From the NCBI GenBank assembly GCA_022823605.1, contig JAJEHS010000005.1, forward strand, positions 62,001-126,000: a DNA stretch of 64,000 nt, given 5' to 3'. The DNA is from Paracoccaceae bacterium (GTDB lineage Bacteria > Pseudomonadota > Alphaproteobacteria > Rhodobacterales > Rhodobacteraceae). Below, in pieces: positions 6,898 to 16,179 of the stretch. Each line of letters begins with the position of its first letter. The stretch's first letter is position 1. The position numbers and the translations under genes are program-made. The notes under the pieces were generated by a model. The model saw only the letters and a list, made by a program, of their open reading frames with translations. It was not told the DNA's origin and made no database searches.

Positions 6898-7161
6898 GCA
6901 TGGTAGCATATAAGGTACCATCATTCAATTTCTAGAACAGGATTGAATACATACATGCATCAAAAAATATTGTTCAAACATTTTATTTCTGATATTTGAT
7001 AAGTAATCGTCCTATGGGTATAGTTTTCATAAGAACAAAAATAGGGAATTTACAGAATCCAAAAAAAGGCAGGTTTTCAAGTGAATTTTATAGATATGAA
7101 ATATATAACCGTAAGGGGTTTCCAGCATGATGGTAAAAATCCCACTAATAGACGTAAATCC

Positions 7162-7992
7162 ATGGCTCAACTAATTTTGCAGAGGCTAGTATCTCCTGGC
7201 AGATTGGGTATTGCACTTTTTATTGTACCATTTCTTATTGCCACAGCTTCGGTGCAAGGAGTAAATGCGCAATCAGAGGTTGAGAAAGGTTTGGAGATAG
7301 CCCAGAAAGCTAGAGATGCCGATAGAGGATTTGAAAATTTCATTGCCGAAATGGTCATGATTCTTAGAAACAAACAGGGCCAGGAAAACAAGCGTTCCCT
7401 TAGGATCAAGGTAATGGAAGTTTCAGGGGATGGTAACATGTCCCTTTTTGTCTTCGATAATCCTCGTGATGTAAAAGGTACTGCATTGTTGATACATGGG
7501 CATTTGGACAAGTCGGATGATCAGTGGCTTTATCTTCCAGCACTAAAGAGGGTCAAGCGTATCAGTTCATCAAATCGTTCAGGTTCCTTTGTAGGAAGTG
7601 AGTTCGCTTATGAGGATTTGGGTAGCCTGGAAGTTGAAAAATATACCTATAAATGGCTGCGTGATGAAAAATGTGGTGATCTGGACTGTACGGTAACTGA
7701 ATATAAACCTTCTGAAAAGGGTTCAGGTTACACCCGAATGTTGTTATGGCATGACAAGGATGAATTACGGGTTTGGAAAATAGAATATTATGATCGAAAA
7801 AATGCCCATCTTAAAACGCTGGTTCATGAAGATTACGAACAATATCTTGATCAATATTGGCGATCAAAGCGTTCGAATATGGTCAATCATATAACGGGGA
7901 AATCCACAGAAATACTGTGGGACCAGATTCAATTTCGAACTGATTTGAACGAGGGTGAATTTACAAAGACAGGACTGAGAAGGGTCCGTTAA
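7162..7992 (+). CDS. LolA-like periplasmic lipid-carrier protein (outer-membrane lipoprotein-sorting family)
   Basis: The frame opens at 7081, but the ATG at 7162 gives a good Sec signal peptide (basic start, hydrophobic core IALFIVPFLIATASV, cleavage near NAQSE), so I place the start there; the protein is then 276 aa. The rest resembles the LolA-like family that accompanies MMPL-type RND transporters: DNPRDVKGTALLIH, DDQWLYLPALKRVKRI, a region around GSEFAYEDL, and WKIEYYDRK. These proteins are thought to carry lipid or lipoprotein between membranes. First gene of a five-gene run that ends with the MMPL transporter, 21 nt before the beta-barrel gene. Confidence 0.8.
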   Translation: MAQLILQRLVSPGRLGIALFIVPFLIATASVQGVNAQSEVEKGLEIAQKARDADRGFENFIAEMVMILRNKQGQENKRSLRIKVMEVSGDGNMSLFVFDNPRDVKGTALLIHGHLDKSDDQWLYLPALKRVKRISSSNRSGSFVGSEFAYEDLGSLEVEKYTYKWLRDEKCGDLDCTVTEYKPSEKGSGYTRMLLWHDKDELRVWKIEYYDRKNAHLKTLVHEDYEQYLDQYWRSKRSNMVNHITGKSTEILWDQIQFRTDLNEGEFTKTGLRRVR

Positions 7993-8013
7993 ATTACTTG
8001 GCTCAAAATTTCC

Positions 8014-9270
8014 ATGGCAAAGTATTGTATTGCGATTTTTACATACTTGCTACTGATAGCAAATCCGGGATTGACCGAAGAGCATCAGGATTGGTCGGTA
8101 GAACATTGGGGTAAGGTAACATTCGGTACCAGGATTTTTCTTGATGACCCTGCACACCAAGGGCAGAAAGGAGATAACTTTAGCCTAACCTTTGAGCCCA
8201 CGATTTATTCTGAATCGGCTGAAGGTAACAGTTTTACATTCACCCCCTTTATCATGATCGACAGCGTTGATAGCGAACGTACGCATGTTGACATCAGGGA
8301 AGCCTATTATCTGACTTTTGGGTCTATGGGAGAATCTGAATGGGAACTTCGAATCGGTATAGATCAGGTATTTTGGGGCACTGCCGAATCCCATAATCCG
8401 GTGAATGTCATCAACCAGACCGATTATGTTGTTCATCCCAATGGTGAAAGTAAATTGGGCCAACCCATGATACATGGAACCCTCGCTGGGGATTGGGGTA
8501 TGCTTGATGCCTTTATATTGCCCTATCATCGCCCCCGGACTTTCCCGGGTATCAAGGGACGATTTCGAACAGCCCTACCTGTTCAGACTTCTCGAAAAAC
8601 GATACGATATGCTTCCTCCAAAGGAAGAAACCATATTGATCTGGCAGCCAGATACAGTAACAGTCTTGGGGCTTTGGACTTCGGTGTGAGCTATTTCGAT
8701 GGAACAAGCCGAGATCCACGTTTGGTACCAAACCCGCTTCCACTTCCACCTGACTTTAATGAACCTGTACCGAGAGAGTGGATTCAGCATTATGATTTGA
8801 TCAAGCAGTTCGGATTGGATTTGCAACTGACCTTGGGAGCATTCTTGGGCAAGGCTGAGTGGATAACCAGAGAGGAAATCAAAGCCGATAATACCCGGTC
8901 AAGATCCCATGTATCCGTTTTGGGTGGGGAATATGCCATCTATGGCATATTCGAGTCAGAAGCTGACCTTACCTTGTTTGCCGAGTGGAATCATGATACT
9001 GGTGGGCAATCGCTATTGCAGGATGATCTGTTTTTTGCAGCCCGCTACTCCTTTAACGATATTCTGGATACGGATATTACAGTTGCCTTGATAGATGATC
9101 GTGATTTTGACACCAAAACACTGAATATTGAATTTAATCGCCGATTGTCGGATTCATTTTCATTGACAGTTGAAGCGTTTAAATTTCTTGAGGATGACCC
9201 AGGGGATATTACAAGCCAGCAAATTGTCAATGATGAATATGTTGCCCTTGACCTGAGTTTCAGTTATTAG
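8014..9270 (+). CDS. Outer-membrane beta-barrel protein of the lipid-export locus
   Basis: A 418-residue secreted protein: a short signal peptide (IAIFTYLLLIANPGLTEE), then alternating polar/hydrophobic strands throughout, many Asp/Arg-ended turns, and a terminal strand ending in Tyr (VALDLSFSY), as expected for recognition by the BAM complex. No named family is certain; the general look is of the large barrels that sit beside LolA-like and MMPL genes. In this context it could receive or release the lipid at the outer membrane. That role comes from its neighbours, not from motifs. Confidence 0.7.
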   Translation: MAKYCIAIFTYLLLIANPGLTEEHQDWSVEHWGKVTFGTRIFLDDPAHQGQKGDNFSLTFEPTIYSESAEGNSFTFTPFIMIDSVDSERTHVDIREAYYLTFGSMGESEWELRIGIDQVFWGTAESHNPVNVINQTDYVVHPNGESKLGQPMIHGTLAGDWGMLDAFILPYHRPRTFPGIKGRFRTALPVQTSRKTIRYASSKGRNHIDLAARYSNSLGALDFGVSYFDGTSRDPRLVPNPLPLPPDFNEPVPREWIQHYDLIKQFGLDLQLTLGAFLGKAEWITREEIKADNTRSRSHVSVLGGEYAIYGIFESEADLTLFAEWNHDTGGQSLLQDDLFFAARYSFNDILDTDITVALIDDRDFDTKTLNIEFNRRLSDSFSLTVEAFKFLEDDPGDITSQQIVNDEYVALDLSFSY

Positions 9271-9374
9271 GTAAGAAATGAGTTGTTGAGACCGCCATGG
9301 GGCAAGAAGACTCATCACAGGAAGCCAGGGGATATTACGATAAGACCTTTCAACAAGTATCAGATGATGGTTAA

Positions 9375-10442
9375 ATGACTGTAACACATGTTCCCAATCC
9401 AACTGGCACAACGCTGTCCCATGATGAGTGCATTGCATTTCAGGACAGGTTCCTTGAGGATGTTTCCAGGACCTTTGCCCTGACCATACCACAGCTTCCG
9501 CCACCTTTGTACCTGGCTGTTGGCAATGCCTATCTGCTATGTCGCATTGCCGATACGATTGAAGACGAGCCAGAGTTGCCCCCTGAGCAGAAAACAGTCT
9601 TTTCCGAATGGTTCAACGAGGTAGTCAAGGGGACAAGGGAACCTGACGAGTTTGCCGATAAACTAGCCGGGGAGCTATCATCTGCAACAAAACAGGGTGA
9701 AAAGGAACTGATTGCCAGTTCCAGCAAGGTGATACAAATTACTCATGGGTTTACACCAGCCCAAAGACAGGCGATTGAGCGTTGTGTTGAGATCATGACC
9801 AAGGGAATGGGACAATTTCAGCAAAATGCAGGTATAGCCGGGTTGAAGGATTTATCCGAGCTGGACCATTACTGTTATTGCGTAGCTGGTGTTGTGGGTG
9901 AAATGTTGACCGATTTGTTTTGTGAGTATTCACCCGAAATAGCGAATAACAGGGAAGAATTGCTTGATCTTGCAATACAGTTTGGGCAGGGTTTGCAAAT
10001 GACCAACATTTTGAAGGATGTCTGGGATGACCGTCAAAGGGGAATATGCTGGTTGCCGAGAGAAGTTTTTGAAAAATATGGAATTGAACTGGATACCGTG
10101 AAACCCACCGAGCCTGGTTTAAGCTCGGGTATTCATGATCTTGTGGCAATAGCCCATCGGCATTTGCAAGGTGCTTTAAGGTATATATTGACCATCCCAT
10201 CAAATGAGACAGGTATCAGGCAACACTGTCTGTCTGCTTTGGGAATGGCAGTACTTACACTCAAGAGGGTAAAAAACAACCCTGAATTTACAAATGGTAA
10301 TGAAGTTAAAATTTCTCGCAGAAGTGTTAAACTGATACTTTTCGTTACCCAATTGTTGGTGAGATCCAATCTGGGTTTGAAACTGCTTTTTACAGTTTTG
10401 ATGTTTGATTTTCGTGGTTTGCAACAGCCAAATAAAACTTGA
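9375..10442 (+). CDS. Squalene/phytoene synthase family enzyme (head-to-head prenyl synthase)
   Basis: This family joins two prenyl diphosphates head-to-head, for instance two farnesyl-PP to squalene. Visible motifs: the first Asp-rich site in LLCRIADTIEDE (residues 54-65), the active-site helix YCYCVAGVVGEMLTDLF (166-182) and the second Asp-rich site NILKDVWDDR (211-220). The layout is closer to the eukaryotic-type squalene synthase than to the HpnC/HpnD pair of hopanoid makers. The 355-residue length fits. There is no obvious C-terminal membrane anchor, though the tail is hydrophobic (LLFTVLMFDF). No cyclase is in the window, so the end product is unknown. Confidence 0.85.
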   Translation: MTVTHVPNPTGTTLSHDECIAFQDRFLEDVSRTFALTIPQLPPPLYLAVGNAYLLCRIADTIEDEPELPPEQKTVFSEWFNEVVKGTREPDEFADKLAGELSSATKQGEKELIASSSKVIQITHGFTPAQRQAIERCVEIMTKGMGQFQQNAGIAGLKDLSELDHYCYCVAGVVGEMLTDLFCEYSPEIANNREELLDLAIQFGQGLQMTNILKDVWDDRQRGICWLPREVFEKYGIELDTVKPTEPGLSSGIHDLVAIAHRHLQGALRYILTIPSNETGIRQHCLSALGMAVLTLKRVKNNPEFTNGNEVKISRRSVKLILFVTQLLVRSNLGLKLLFTVLMFDFRGLQQPNKT

Positions 10443-10624
10443 ATTTTTCTGAACTTATTGATAGTGCCATAGAAAAAAACTACGGGTAGAATTCAACAAA
10501 ATTTGCATTTATCGAGGTCTAATGGTTAAATTGGAGAGTTTGTTGTTTTGAATAGGTCTAATTTTGTTTCTTAACTCCCTATATTTACTTTACGGGCTGA
10601 ATTGCATCAGGAAATATTAACTTT

Positions 10625-11800
10625 ATGACGATGAATATACCTACATCCTATATTGAGGGGTATGACAAGGCTCTGAAGGAAAATCCAGCGATTGCCAAAA
10701 ATTATATAGCCCATACCACTATTGGTGACCCTTTGGCTGATGACCTCATAAGGGATACCATATCTCTGGAGCCAAAACAATTCCAAAGATATATTCGATT
10801 GGGCATGGTTGGAGAAACGAATCTGGAAGAATTCAAGAGTGCCCCCAAAACCATCAGGGATTTTTTTGAAGCCAATGCAACAACTCCAGATTGGGTTGAT
10901 ATCGATGCTTATAAACCTGGTATAAAGATGTTTCACAACAATACCCGTCTTGTGCTGGCAAGTATGGTTGGTGGTACGTTGGTTGAGGGATTCGCGACAA
11001 ATATCGCTAAATCCTTTTTTCTTACCGGTCGGTTAGTTGACAAGGGTATCAGGAGGTTGAAACAGAATAACCGTCACATGCTTGAAATTTTCATGCCCAA
11101 TGGAATGGATAGGCATAATGATGGCTGGGTTTTATCAATCCGAATACGATTGGTTCATGCCAAAATCAGATGGTTGTTGTCACAATCCCCTGAATGGGAC
11201 CATGAAGTATTGGGTATGCCCCTGAGCAGTGCCAATTTGGGTTTTGCCATTGCCTCATTTTCTGCAAGGACTCTCTATTTCCTTGAAAAGCTGGGCGCTA
11301 CAATGACTGAAGAGGAGAAAGCCAGTTTCATGCAAGTGTGGAGATATTCAGGATATTTGATGGGTATCCCGGAATCGATACTTTACACCAACGAGCTGGA
11401 TGCAGTGGGATTGAACCGGATTGCACGTATATGTGAACCTCCTCCATCAATGGAATCAATAATTTTGGCTTCGGCACTCATCAATTCAGCACCATTGTTT
11501 GCTGGCATCACCCAGCGAAAGGAACGAAAAGAATTGGCTGGTTACATTTCAAAATTATCACGTGCCATGATAGGGAATGAGCTTGCAGATAGCTTGCAGT
11601 ATGAACCATCAAGTACAATCGGGGTTATTTTGAGGTTTAAATTGGTGAACAAGATACAAGATTTAATTGGATTTTTCAGCACTGGTAACCACAATACCAA
11701 GAACATGATGACAGCTTTGGAGGTATCAATGTATGACGATAGAGGGATACCCTTCAATTTGCCAGATCACTACATTTCCGAAAGTTCATCCCATTGGTGA
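10625..11800 (+). CDS. MpaB/rubber-oxygenase-like (DUF2236) oxygenase
   Basis: The 391-residue protein matches the MpaB / latex-clearing-protein family, heme-b enzymes that oxidise isoprenoid chains (rubber, meroterpenoid tails). Family-like segments are TPDWVDIDAY, LVEGFATNIAKSFFLTGRL, and the conserved Arg/His helix GWVLSIRIRLVHAKIRW around residue 170, where the heme-ligand His is expected, then YLMGIPESILY. No signal peptide is visible. It sits 182 nt after the squalene-synthase-type gene, suggesting it acts on that product (for example oxidative cleavage of an isoprenoid double bond). That substrate link is inference. Confidence 0.78.
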   Translation: MTMNIPTSYIEGYDKALKENPAIAKNYIAHTTIGDPLADDLIRDTISLEPKQFQRYIRLGMVGETNLEEFKSAPKTIRDFFEANATTPDWVDIDAYKPGIKMFHNNTRLVLASMVGGTLVEGFATNIAKSFFLTGRLVDKGIRRLKQNNRHMLEIFMPNGMDRHNDGWVLSIRIRLVHAKIRWLLSQSPEWDHEVLGMPLSSANLGFAIASFSARTLYFLEKLGATMTEEEKASFMQVWRYSGYLMGIPESILYTNELDAVGLNRIARICEPPPSMESIILASALINSAPLFAGITQRKERKELAGYISKLSRAMIGNELADSLQYEPSSTIGVILRFKLVNKIQDLIGFFSTGNHNTKNMMTALEVSMYDDRGIPFNLPDHYISESSSHW

Positions 11801-11896
11801 TATTATCGTTTACCTCCAGTCAAGATCCAGCAGAAGTGATATTGAGACTGGCCTGATGGGTTTTTTGAATGAAATATTGTAGCGTTTCAGATTGAC

Positions 11897-14203
11897 ATGA
11901 AAATTAACGCATTCACCGAATTCCTGTTCCGCTTTCGATGGATAGTCATAGCAAGCACATTGATTGTGATGCTTGGAACATCTGTCGGGATCGGTTTTCT
12001 CGGAGTTACGAATGATTACCGCAGTTTGTTTGATGATGATAATCCACAGTTGGTTTTGTTGGATGCACTGGAAAATATCTATGGTAAATCTGAAAGCAGT
12101 ATAATCGCCATAGAACCCAAAGGTCAATCGGTCTTCCAAAGAGATGTATTGGCAGCAGTGGAGTCACTGACAGATTCAGCTTGGCAAGTACCATATTCAA
12201 CCCGTGTGGATTCACTTACCAATTATCTTCACAGTTGGGCAGAGGAAGACGACCTAATTGTTGAGGAACTGGTAATTAATGCTCCTTCTCTGTCAGATGA
12301 GGAGCTGATGAGAATCAATGAAATTGCCATGACTGACAATGATGTTGCAGGTCGGCTTGTTTCGATGGATGGAAGGGTTGCCGGATTGGTAATTACTCAC
12401 TCCCTCCCGGAAGGCAATTCGGATGATGCTGTATTTGAAATTACCGATTATTTGGGGAGGATGCTTGAGCAAGCTCACGCAGAGAATCCTGATATTAACT
12501 ATTACCTGACCGGAGACATTCCACTCAATAGGGCGTTCTCCGATGCCACAAGGGATGATCAGCAAACCCTGATACCGATTGTCTTTCTAGTAATAGCCGT
12601 CATTGCCACCCTTTTATTGCGATCATTCTTGGCTATGGCTGCATTGATGGTCGTTGTGGTTTTTTCCGTGAACATGGTCATGGGTTTTGCCGGATGGTTG
12701 GGTGTCGTGTTCAATCCTGCTAATGGCGGTGTACCTATTATTGTTATGACCGTAGCGGTGGCACATGCTGTACATATTGTGGAATCCACACTTGCCGGGT
12801 TAAGTCGTGGCCTTGATCGACGGGTGGCAATTGTGGAAGCCATGCAACATAATGTGTGGCCGGTATTCCTTACCACTTTGACAACCATGATCGGGTTTCT
12901 CAGCCTGAATGCTTCCGATTCACCACCATTTCGAGTGCTCGGCAATCTAGTGGCTTTTGGCGTGTTCTGGACATTACTGTTTTCCCTGACCCTGTTGCCG
13001 GCCTTACTTGCCGTCATGCCACTGAAATCCCGCAAAAGAATTAGTCTTTCATCCAAATATTTTGATTGGTTCAGTTCATTCGTAATTGTTCGAAAGAAAA
13101 TCCTGCTGGTGATTACGTCCCTGGTAACCATATTCCTGGCCAGTGGGATATTCCAACTAGAATTAACTGATAACTGGTTGAAATATTTTGATAAACGTTA
13201 CCAATTCCGTCTGGATACCGATTTTGTGGCAGACAATCTGACAGGGATCTTGACTCTGGAATATTCACTTGATTCCGGATCGGAGAATGGCATTACAGAC
13301 CCAGATTATCTGCTGAAAGTGGAGCAATTTGCCGAATGGTTCAGGGAACAGCCAGAGGTTCTACAGGTACAGTCCTTTACGGACATAATGAAACGTCTTA
13401 ACAAAAACATGAATGGCGATGACCCTTCCTTTTTCAAACTTCCCGATTCTTCGGAACTAGCTGCTCAGTACCTCTTGCTTTATGAATTGTCCCTACCTTT
13501 TGGAAGGGACCTGAACAACAGGATTGATATCGGTAAGACCTCAACTCGTTTGACAGTCTCACTCAGTACACTCACAGCAAACCAGCAGCAGGTTCTGGAC
13601 ACTCGTGCCCAATCCTGGTTGAACGAAAATGCACCTGAAATGGTTACGGAAGCATCAGGTGTAAGTATCGTTTTTGCCCATTTGTCGCAGCGCAATATCA
13701 AGAGTATGCTCAGTGGAACAATAATTGCCATGGCTCTCATTTCCCTGATTTTAATCATTGTGTTCAGAAACCTTCGAATTGGTCTGATAAGCCTTATTCC
13801 AAATTTCATACCGGCAATGCTAAGTCTGGGACTTTGGGGATATCTGGTAGGCAGGGTTGGGCTTGCAGGTTCGGTAATGACGGCATTTGCCTTTGGAATT
13901 ATTGTTGATGATACAATTCATTTCTTAACAAGTTATCTCAAGGCACGGCGTAACAACGATGACCCCGAGGAAGCCATAAGGAAAACATTCAGGAACGTTG
14001 GACACGCCTTGTGGACAACATCCATGATCTTGTCATTGGGATTTCTGGTCTTTGCATCGTCAGGTTTTGAAGTAAGTTGGACCCTTGGGCTGCTTGTCAT
14101 GTTAACGATCTGGTTTGCCTTACTTGCAGATTTTCTGCTTTTACCCTCATTGTTGCTGGTTCTAGACAAAAAAGGTCCTGAATCGAAATACTTGGATAAA
14201 TAA
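11897..14203 (+). CDS. MMPL/RND-family lipid transporter
   Basis: An inner-membrane transporter of 768 residues with the RND two-half layout: TM1 near 13-35, a large periplasmic loop, a TM bundle near 210-365 (including the HAVHIVESTL segment), a second TM and loop from about 400, and a final bundle from about 610. The helix FAFGIIVDDTIHFLTSY with its paired Asp is the proton-relay position of MMPL proteins. Relatives include HpnN, which moves hopanoids to the outer membrane. Coming last after the LolA-like, barrel, synthase and oxygenase genes, it is probably the pump of the same pathway. Confidence 0.88.
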   Translation: MKINAFTEFLFRFRWIVIASTLIVMLGTSVGIGFLGVTNDYRSLFDDDNPQLVLLDALENIYGKSESSIIAIEPKGQSVFQRDVLAAVESLTDSAWQVPYSTRVDSLTNYLHSWAEEDDLIVEELVINAPSLSDEELMRINEIAMTDNDVAGRLVSMDGRVAGLVITHSLPEGNSDDAVFEITDYLGRMLEQAHAENPDINYYLTGDIPLNRAFSDATRDDQQTLIPIVFLVIAVIATLLLRSFLAMAALMVVVVFSVNMVMGFAGWLGVVFNPANGGVPIIVMTVAVAHAVHIVESTLAGLSRGLDRRVAIVEAMQHNVWPVFLTTLTTMIGFLSLNASDSPPFRVLGNLVAFGVFWTLLFSLTLLPALLAVMPLKSRKRISLSSKYFDWFSSFVIVRKKILLVITSLVTIFLASGIFQLELTDNWLKYFDKRYQFRLDTDFVADNLTGILTLEYSLDSGSENGITDPDYLLKVEQFAEWFREQPEVLQVQSFTDIMKRLNKNMNGDDPSFFKLPDSSELAAQYLLLYELSLPFGRDLNNRIDIGKTSTRLTVSLSTLTANQQQVLDTRAQSWLNENAPEMVTEASGVSIVFAHLSQRNIKSMLSGTIIAMALISLILIIVFRNLRIGLISLIPNFIPAMLSLGLWGYLVGRVGLAGSVMTAFAFGIIVDDTIHFLTSYLKARRNNDDPEEAIRKTFRNVGHALWTTSMILSLGFLVFASSGFEVSWTLGLLVMLTIWFALLADFLLLPSLLLVLDKKGPESKYLDK

Positions 14204-14345
14204 GCCCACTCTGATTATGAGGTTCAGCGATTTACCCAATCCTCTTCATCAGTAATTCACATCTGACTTCACCTGAACACTTGAAATTTAAATTTCCTTC
14301 TACAAATCAATACCCCATCAGCGAACAGAAAAAGGTATAAAACTC

Positions 14346-14612
14346 ATGGCCAACTCTCGCCAAGCAAAAAAAAGGGCACGACAATCTGTAGTCCGCTTCA
14401 GGGTAAATCACTCCCGAATCATGCGGGTAAGAACCTTTATCAGAAAGGTTGAAGAGGCAGTTGCCGGGGGTAACTATGAGGAGGCCAGATCAGCTCTACG
14501 CCAGGCACAAAGTGAAATAATGCGCAGTGTCTCAAAAGGGATTATGCATAAAAATACCGCTAGTCGTAAGGTTTCTAGGCTATCACGCAAGGTAAAACTG
14601 CTTGCTGCCTGA
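14346..14612 (+). CDS. rpsT: 30S ribosomal protein S20
   Basis: The small basic protein (88 aa) opens [13 protein letters not shown] and has the S20 three-helix pattern with [17 protein letters not shown] near the end. It binds 16S rRNA early in small-subunit assembly. In many alphaproteobacteria rpsT stands next to dnaA; here a GC-rich oxidoreductase gene and a long AT-rich gap separate them. Confidence 0.97.
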
Positions 14613-14853: not shown

Positions 14854-16179
14854 ATGAGCACACAACCACGTGTTATCGTTATAGGAGGGGGAGCCTCGGG
14901 ACTGAGCGCGGCATACACACTGATGAAACGTGGACTGCGCCCCCTCCTGCTGGAGGCAACCGATCAGATCGGCGGGCGGATGGGTGGCGACCGGATCGAT
15001 GGCTTTTCGACCGACAAGGGCGCGGATTTTTTCCCGGGCTCCTACGACACGACGTTCCGCCTGTGCGAAGAGTTGGATGTACCGCTGAGACGCCTCAGCA
15101 TGGACATCGGCTGGCATAGGTGCGGACGCTGGGCCGTCACGACACCAATCACCTCTGCGGGCACGCTCTTGAGGAATATCCGGGCCGCGCGGACTCTGGA
15201 TCTCCAGTCGCTGCAGGGTACATGGGCGATCCTCAAGCTGGTCAGGAGCCTTAAAGCCGACGCGAAGTACCTGAACTATGCGAGCTCGCACCGCATCGCG
15301 GAGATGGATACGGATGAGACATACGGTGCGTATCTGGACAGGCTCGGCGTGCCCGAACCATTGCGGTTGACGCTGGACGGATTTCTGGGATTGACCATGG
15401 GAAATCCCGAGGAATTCGGCTCCACCTGGATCCGGGCCTTCCTCGCTGAGGTTCTGTTCAAACCGGACAAATTGTTCACACCGGTGGGCGGGTGCAGCCA
15501 TCTAACAGAGGTGCTGGCCGACAGACTGGGCGGTACTGTTCACGTCTCAACTCCGGTGAGGCGGGTTGTCATCGAGAACGGAAAGGCCACGGGCGTTGTG
15601 ACTGACGACGGCTTCATGGAGGCCGACGCCATCATTTCCAGCATACCAGCAACGAAGGCGTTGGCGATCATGCCGGATCTGCCGGAGAGGATTCGCGATG
15701 CACTGGACAGGGTGCAATATTCGTTCGGCATCCGTGTGGTGATGGGTCTTGACCACCCGCCGCTTCCTCCGGGCTGGAGTGTTGCGCTCTATCCCGGGGA
15801 CGATACCCCGTCACTGATGGACCGTACCGTCAACCTGCCGGAATGCGCGCCATCCGGCAAAAGCCTGCTTGACCTTTGGGTCGGAGAACGACGCGCCAAG
15901 GATCTGATGACCCTCGACGACGAAGCGGTTGTCCGCGCGCTTCTGGCCGATGCTCATCGAAACGCTCCCCCCGGTTCGACGCTTCCCCAGTATGAAGAAG
16001 CGGTCTGCAAGGGATTGCCAGGGATGTTCACGGCCATAAATCAAATGCGGCAGAACATTGGGTCGGACCTGCTGAACCTCCGTATCGCGGGCGATTTCAT
16101 GCGCGCGCCGATCGTGAACGGTGCGATCACAAGTGGTATTGAAACCGCCAACGAGGTTGCCGATTTTCTGGAGGCTTAG
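14854..16179 (+). CDS. FAD-dependent oxidoreductase (protoporphyrinogen-oxidase/amine-oxidase-like), GC-rich
   Basis: The N-terminus is a standard FAD-binding Rossmann fold, VIVIGGGASGLSAAYTL, with the glutamate-bearing second strand LLLEATDQIGGRM. The C-terminus has the second FAD contact RIAGDFMRAPIVNGAITSGI. The whole resembles the protoporphyrinogen oxidase / phytoene desaturase / monoamine oxidase superfamily; the substrate cannot be told. It is clearly GC-richer than the surrounding genes and uses codons such as GCG, CGC and GGC that are rare next door. The unusual composition starts close to 14790 and stops at about 16190. A link to the isoprenoid run upstream is possible but unsupported. 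Confidence 0.75.
   Translation: MSTQPRVIVIGGGASGLSAAYTLMKRGLRPLLLEATDQIGGRMGGDRIDGFSTDKGADFFPGSYDTTFRLCEELDVPLRRLSMDIGWHRCGRWAVTTPITSAGTLLRNIRAARTLDLQSLQGTWAILKLVRSLKADAKYLNYASSHRIAEMDTDETYGAYLDRLGVPEPLRLTLDGFLGLTMGNPEEFGSTWIRAFLAEVLFKPDKLFTPVGGCSHLTEVLADRLGGTVHVSTPVRRVVIENGKATGVVTDDGFMEADAIISSIPATKALAIMPDLPERIRDALDRVQYSFGIRVVMGLDHPPLPPGWSVALYPGDDTPSLMDRTVNLPECAPSGKSLLDLWVGERRAKDLMTLDDEAVVRALLADAHRNAPPGSTLPQYEEAVCKGLPGMFTAINQMRQNIGSDLLNLRIAGDFMRAPIVNGAITSGIETANEVADFLEA

Follow-up and report, generated by a model that had tools for sequence, protein, structure and literature searches.

The five-gene locus

Between positions 7162 and 14203 of a 64,000-nucleotide stretch from a marine Paracoccaceae bacterium, closely related to sponge-derived bacteria (contig JAJEHS010000005.1; the whole stretch is termed the window here), five genes on the plus strand appear to form a cassette for the synthesis, oxidation and transport of an isoprenoid lipid. 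They encode, in order, a LolA_like carrier (7162-7992; PF17131 202.8 bits, PF07044 36.9 bits), a DUF1302-type, AmeA-like outer-membrane beta-barrel (8014-9270; PF06980 26.6 bits), a squalene-synthase-type head-to-head prenyltransferase of the SQS_PSY family, termed SQS (9375-10442; PF00494 191.3 bits), an MpaB/Lcp-family b-type haem oxygenase with the MPAB_Lcp_cat domain, termed MpaB (10625-11800; PF09995 45.1 bits), and a HAE3/MMPL-type RND inner-membrane lipid transporter that resembles AmeD and HpnN, termed MMPL (11897-14203; PF03176 138.8 bits, PF12349 32.4 bits). The open reading frame list and domain searches show that all five frames are open and intact, and they confirm the gene identities, order, strand and place given in an initial annotation of the window. 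The intergenic gaps, from LolA to MMPL, are 21, 104, 182 and 96 bases; the LolA gene has an alternative GTG start further upstream, at 7081, which is likewise open. Promoter and terminator scans gave background level only. Could the grouping be fortuitous? Because the set recurs in other phyla, it goes beyond chance.

Recurrence and horizontal transfer

An SQS alignment was used to scan GTDB representatives, and 80 named loci were obtained. The full five-gene set is present at six of these: two in the Opitutales/Opitutia of the Verrucomicrobiota (L127, L136), one in the Acidobacteria (L148), two in the Gammaproteobacteria (L129 and L130, the latter named Porisulfidus) and one in Rhodobacter (L135). 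Partial sets occur at L128, L131, L141 and L193, an SQS-MpaB pair at L134 and L137 (Rhodothermales, Rhodothermota), and a weaker MpaB match (36%) at L153 and L159; MpaB lies within about 10 kb of SQS at 14 of the 80 loci. Gene order is shuffled between phyla. SQS loci of Thiotrichaceae, Nitrosomonas, Methylococcales and Halomonas show no strong match to the cassette genes. A search for the same five-gene neighbourhood in other genomes, as the initial annotation had proposed, thus finds it co-conserved in Verrucomicrobiota, Acidobacteriota, Gammaproteobacteria and Alphaproteobacteria.

A single 32-row branch of the SQS tree (support 86/92, which is not strong) takes in 22 of the 23 rows associated with the cassette, and phyla are interleaved within it. 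The cassette label changes 8 times over the tree, against a mean of 20.6 when labels are shuffled, and verrucomicrobial and gammaproteobacterial SQS proteins are up to 74-77% identical. This mixing of phyla implies horizontal transfer. How much of the cassette moved together? Protein distances among SQS, LolA and the barrel are closely correlated (r 0.84-0.95) and those of MpaB with these three less so (r 0.52-0.73). MMPL and MpaB distances correlate at r 0.22 only, a poor fit that points to swapping of parts. As judged from these distances, the cassette parts appear to have been partly co-transferred and partly swapped.

Several of the genomes are linked to sponges. We take the CAR, COS, RHO, APA and SB genome series to be of sponge origin. 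The record title of L128 includes 'lac_sponge', and L127 belongs to the metagenome-assembled genome (MAG) jk18x7bins.13, reported in PMC9531527 to come from the sponge Ircinia cf. reteplana.

The squalene-synthase-type enzyme and the fate of its product

The best NCBIfam model for SQS is TIGR01559 at 114.9 bits, short of its curated cut-off of 286.75; HpnD, CrtB and HpnC score 74.9, 46.9 and 45.7 bits. Both Asp-rich motifs (DTIED and DVWDD) are kept, with D60, E63, D64, D215 and D219 invariant in seven aligned sequences, and they line up with those of human SQS. The nearest structures are eukaryotic, and the C-terminal region aligns with the human enzyme (VKISRR versus VKIRKG). By sequence, SQS is closest to the one-enzyme squalene synthase type. 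The region aligned to the human NADPH site is conserved only in part; R317 and F288, which we take to be residues of that site, are not strictly kept. Squalene is therefore the likely product, though not a certain one, with dehydrosqualene and presqualene as the other candidates. In the Acidobacteria, L148:9995-12081 holds a tandem SQS pair, each member belonging to the one-enzyme type.

The window genome has one SQS_PSY gene and two polyprenyl synthases. A squalene or oxidosqualene cyclase (PF13243) was found neither in this 97%-complete genome nor in eight genus relatives, so that the absence of a cyclase in the initial annotation holds well beyond the locus; squalene epoxidase (PF08491) had no match in the window genome. 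One might nevertheless suppose that assembly gaps hide a cyclase or that a partner supplies one, and that the operon exports a cyclised triterpenoid (a sterol or hopanoid), as Hpn or Bst clusters do. A cyclase match in G511 and the genes of G563, a genome of the same family, lend this some colour: at L237:9803-13186, G563 has a 1128-aa frame that is apparently a squalene epoxidase-cyclase fusion, with PF08491 in the N-terminal part and PF13249 and PF13243 in the C-terminal part. Relatives of the transporter also adjoin sterol-modifying genes. Against this stand the empty cyclase searches, the lack of PF08491 in the window genome and a transporter far from the HpnN and BstA cut-offs, and we consider such a cyclised product very improbable. 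A hopanoid reading proper was rejected, as HpnC and HpnD (both below cut-off) and the cyclase are lacking.

The MpaB/Lcp-type haem oxygenase

MpaB clears the Pfam cut-off for PF09995 (45.1 versus 23 bits). The Lcp structures 5o1l and 5o1m match it by sequence (E 1e-8), and a Foldseek comparison with its predicted fold gives E of about 1e-8 and TM 0.62-0.70, with 19% identity in the fold alignment. After Lcp, the nearest solved fold is that of t-anethole oxygenase; both are alkene oxygenases. Near-invariant haem-site residues of Lcp are R164, T168 and H198 in Lcp K30 numbering (PMC6311187), which correspond to R144, N148 and H178 here. Across 23 MpaB sequences the haem ligand H178 is invariant and R144 nearly so. 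N148 is nearly invariant in the subfamily, where the position is mostly Asn. The protein thus shares with Lcp/MpaB members (PF09995), which oxidise isoprenoid C=C bonds, the fold, the haem-ligand His and the Arg of the DUF2236 motif, but differs from Lcp in having Asn for the near-essential T168 and no obvious secretion signal. It is a superfamily member, probably a haem oxygenase and, with no obvious signal peptide, probably cytosolic. An assignment as an Lcp rubber oxygenase in the narrow sense was ruled out, because T168 is consistently replaced, mostly by Asn.

Among 150 genomes sampled from the order, which included no genus members, MpaB was found only in the window genome; this sample was misleading as to its spread and was corrected by the genus-level search described below. 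The plasmids searched yielded distant relatives only. At L044 and L049 (G181, G406), with no transporter nearby, two MpaB paralogues of the subfamily stand in tandem; their identities to the window protein are 37% and 43-47%.

Carrier, barrel and transporter

The LolA-like protein has a hydrophobic, signal-peptide-like N-terminus and, by sequence, is assigned to the LolA_like/DUF1329 family as a putative AmeB-like periplasmic lipid carrier; its co-located relatives in other genomes are 56-80% identical. The barrel is the weakest sequence call, its PF06980 score of 26.6 bits being near the threshold of 23.2. An AlphaFold2 model built on a nine-sequence alignment has 18 strands, at a modest pLDDT of 69, and matches porins and AlgE in Foldseek (E 1e-9 to 1e-7). 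MMPL shows sterol-sensing-domain similarity, as its PF12349 match indicates. Its best NCBIfam model is TIGR00921 (HAE3), below that model's cut-off; it scores 99.4 bits with the HpnN model, also under cut-off, and 19.6 bits with BstA, for which the cut-off is 1400.

At L113:7881-9983, one 701-aa frame joins a GPP34 (Golgi phosphoprotein 3) domain to a cytochrome P450, and this fusion adjoins an MMPL of the family described here. Contig L032 (G502:C23, 6646 bases) starts and stops within the LolA gene, its two ends overlapping briefly at residues 117-132, as though the contig were circular or a tandem repeat had been collapsed; L033 (G332:C131, 6804 bases) likewise starts inside LolA.

Relation to known systems

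The initial annotation knew of no described system with this gene set. For the whole set this stands as far as the literature was searched, no description of it having been found; it does not stand for the envelope part, which has a relative in AmeABCD. AmeABCD is an apolar monoterpene efflux system of Castellaniella defragrans, and its deletion lowers monoterpene tolerance (PMC6394551). There, too, a DUF1302 outer-membrane protein, a LolA/DUF1329 periplasmic protein and a HAE3 RND pump are encoded together in an isoprenoid-metabolism island, and the LolA, barrel and MMPL of the window correspond to AmeB, AmeA and AmeD. The frames of 7162-14203 include no fourth envelope gene that might represent AmeC (COG4447-type), the rest of the genome not having been searched for it. 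In contrast to AmeABCD, the window cassette includes SQS and MpaB, a biosynthetic rather than a degradative context.

Similarities to squalene-lipid systems are also evident. HpnCDE/HpnF/HpnN shares squalene-type synthesis, a HAE3/MMPL transporter and, nearby in the window, an HpnE-like FAD enzyme; however, the window has a single SQS in place of HpnC and HpnD, no squalene-hopene cyclase, a transporter far below the HpnN cut-off, and a carrier and a barrel in addition. In BstABC of Methylococcus capsulatus (PMC10942540), an RND/MMPL inner-membrane protein likewise serves a squalene-derived lipid together with partners in the periplasm and the outer membrane, but BstB belongs to the PF12974-type binding proteins and not to LolA, and the window genome has no sterol cyclase. 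The sterol gene clusters (CSGs) of sponge symbionts likewise place squalene-derived lipid genes in many phyla, and squalene synthase (FDFT1) is reported to be enriched in Ircinia genomes (PMC9531527, PMC10070321). CSGs as described in the available text of these papers carry lanosterol synthase, CYP51 and ERG24, none of which the window cassette shows, and that text makes no mention of a cassette of the window type.

Isoprenoid and sterol gene contexts

The isoprenoid setting suggested by the initial annotation is borne out by neighbouring genes. IspH, a housekeeping isoprenoid gene (conserved gene c5), lies near SQS at 12 loci, and in Porisulfidus-like genomes FPP (farnesyl diphosphate) synthase and IspG, the latter recognised from sequence alone, are also beside SQS. 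Since IspH is found beside SQS without the cassette as well, it supports the context and not membership. The transporter family, for its part, is found beside sterol methyltransferase and Rieske oxygenase genes. Where SQS is missing (G425, L034), genes for a PF08498 sterol methyltransferase and a Rieske enzyme of the KshA type lie some 7 kb away from the MpaB-MMPL-LolA-barrel module. In G223 (L109), genes for a sterol methyltransferase, for a Rieske enzyme and for an enzyme resembling 3-beta-HSD are next to a paralogous MMPL-LolA pair, and G432, G509 and G425 have other relatives of MMPL in the vicinity of PF08498 genes. Both contexts point to squalene-derived lipids, obviously the class common to them.

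Are these genes then parts of one pathway? The combination MpaB-MMPL-LolA-barrel without SQS is found in f65/g138 genomes beside sterol-modifying genes, so the module appears looser than a single pathway. As to whether the barrel and LolA belong to an unrelated pathway in relatives, a point raised in the initial annotation, the setting in SQS-less relatives is a related one, though not identical. It could thus be that two neighbouring functions are present: SQS would make plain squalene for the cell's own membranes or for host or neighbours, and MpaB-MMPL-LolA-barrel would separately take up or detoxify host sterols or terpenes, proximity reflecting shared lipid chemistry and not one pathway. 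The SQS-less modules near sterol methyltransferase and Rieske enzymes are in keeping with this, as are an SQS alone in G563, an SQS-barrel pair in G434 and the terpene tolerance that AmeABCD confers (PMC6394551). The repeated co-location of SQS across four phyla or classes, shuffled gene order notwithstanding, speaks against two functions, and the strongly correlated divergence of SQS, LolA and barrel argues for a shared role. We hold this alternative to be possible but doubtful.

An accessory FAD oxidase

Downstream of MMPL are rpsT, the gene of ribosomal protein S20 (~14340-14606, plus strand; PF01649 92.1 bits), which is outside the cassette, and a gene for an HpnE/CrtI-like enzyme of the FAD amine-oxidase family (14854-16179, plus strand; PF01593 140.8 bits); the initial annotation mentions neither. 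The FAD gene starts 650 bases downstream of MMPL. It scores 69 bits with the HpnE model, below cut-off, and has no CrtI or CrtN equivalog over cut-off among the NCBIfam models. Four other genomes have FAD genes close to MMPL or MpaB, and the gene is a recurrent accessory member of the set; it is missing from several genomes with five-gene sets (G530, G535, G537). With rpsT intervening and with a GC content of 60% and a third-position GC (GC3) of 70%, against a GC3 of about 36-48% in the surroundings, the window copy is probably a separate recent import. Its donor was probably of a high-GC type, with insertion between rpsT and dnaA. The gene was rejected as a fixed sixth member of the operon because of the intervening rpsT, its differing composition and its absence from several five-gene genomes.

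Linkage of the FAD enzyme in five genomes, its relation to HpnE/CrtI and the position of the window copy only 650 bases away allow one to envisage a C30 carotenoid pathway, with SQS as a dehydrosqualene/squalene synthase, desaturation by the FAD enzyme, oxidation by MpaB or P450, and passage of the pigment to the outer membrane. That three genomes hold the five-gene set without the FAD gene, and that the enzyme is under every CrtI/CrtN equivalog cut-off, count against a carotenoid; to our knowledge, HAE3/MMPL export is also not the usual carotenoid route. A pigment appears quite improbable.

A proposed pathway and its significance

The interpretation we favour, and regard as probable though by no means assured, is that the cassette both makes and transports an oxidised C30 isoprenoid with an open chain, and that it is mobile among bacteria living in sponges. 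The single SQS would couple FPP from the cell's polyprenyl synthases head to head, giving a C30 hydrocarbon, most likely squalene, as the family suggests. Since the genome has no cyclase, the chain would stay open, and the MpaB/Lcp-type haem enzyme may oxidise or cleave it at C=C bonds; in some relatives the HpnE/CrtI-like FAD enzyme and a P450 may tailor it further, as family chemistry and gene linkage suggest. The HAE3/MMPL pump would then take the lipid out of the inner membrane, the LolA-like carrier would ferry it across the periplasmic space, and its passage into or through the outer membrane would fall to the DUF1302 barrel, in line with the proposal for AmeABCD; it is from homology to that system that we infer an outward direction. 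As the gene set appears to move horizontally among phylogenetically remote sponge bacteria, the lipid probably serves the association, e.g. in lipid supply to host or neighbours, envelope protection or defence.

Several points weigh against this pathway: the missed TIGR01559 cut-off and the partly conserved NADPH region of SQS, the Asn at the T168 position of MpaB, the poor fit of MMPL and MpaB distances, and the occurrence of SQS without the rest and of the rest without SQS. In addition, action of MpaB on the SQS product is predicted from family chemistry and linkage, and transport direction is not readable from sequence.

A more far-reaching version, which we offer tentatively and think unlikely, is a horizontally mobile symbiosis cassette: in unrelated sponge bacteria the open-chain C30 lipid would be made, cleaved or oxidised by the haem alkene oxygenase, and passed to the sponge or to partner bacteria with cyclase and sterol-modifying genes, in a division of labour over triterpenoids and sterols. 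Whether sponge triterpenoids and sterols originate from host or symbiont is an open question that bears on how 24-isopropylcholestane biomarkers are read (PMC10070321). A C30-making cassette with an envelope-crossing route, common to several phyla, is a testable candidate for sponge lipid exchange. If the proposed pathway is correct, the MpaB/Lcp family gains a probable new substrate class, and HAE3/MMPL-LolA-DUF1302 systems, for which few substrates are known, gain a concrete lipid to test.

Variation at the locus among relatives

A SelD-fusion gene is located 5' of the cassette; on the 3' side, rpsT and the FAD oxidase gene are followed by a rhodanese gene and dnaA-dnaN-recF, the last three names being read from translations. 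In genus relatives the cassette is at the same site beside the SelD-fusion gene, and beside rhodanese and dnaA too where the contig reaches. All five genes are present in G535 at 66-80% identity. G530 and G537 have the cassette at 87-99% identity, that of G537 being partial on its contig with MpaB on another. Two other genus members, G532 and G536, are without SQS and MpaB. The nearest named SQS, 96% identical, is from the MAG 'Rhodobacteraceae bacterium isolate SB0678_bin_1', of a series presumably derived from sponge metagenomes.

At the same site, G531 has first an SQS remnant with stops, an MpaB gene and an MMPL remnant. After these come LolA, barrel, a second SQS, this one intact, then a cytochrome P450, an MMPL that differs (43-46% identical) and an FAD enzyme (40% identical). 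The SQS remnant with its internal stops and the MMPL remnant (L118:6295-6692 and 12741-12836), beside newer copies, represent visible gene replacement at the locus within the genus. G533 carries the SQS-MpaB-MMPL arrangement twice, on two different contigs, and one of the two includes FAD; as its contamination estimate is 6%, a strain mixture is possible. In G563, of another genus in the family, P450, MMPL, FAD and MpaB genes share one locus and SQS is elsewhere; its P450 is 69% identical to that of G531, and the P450 of these relatives resembles terpene oxygenases.

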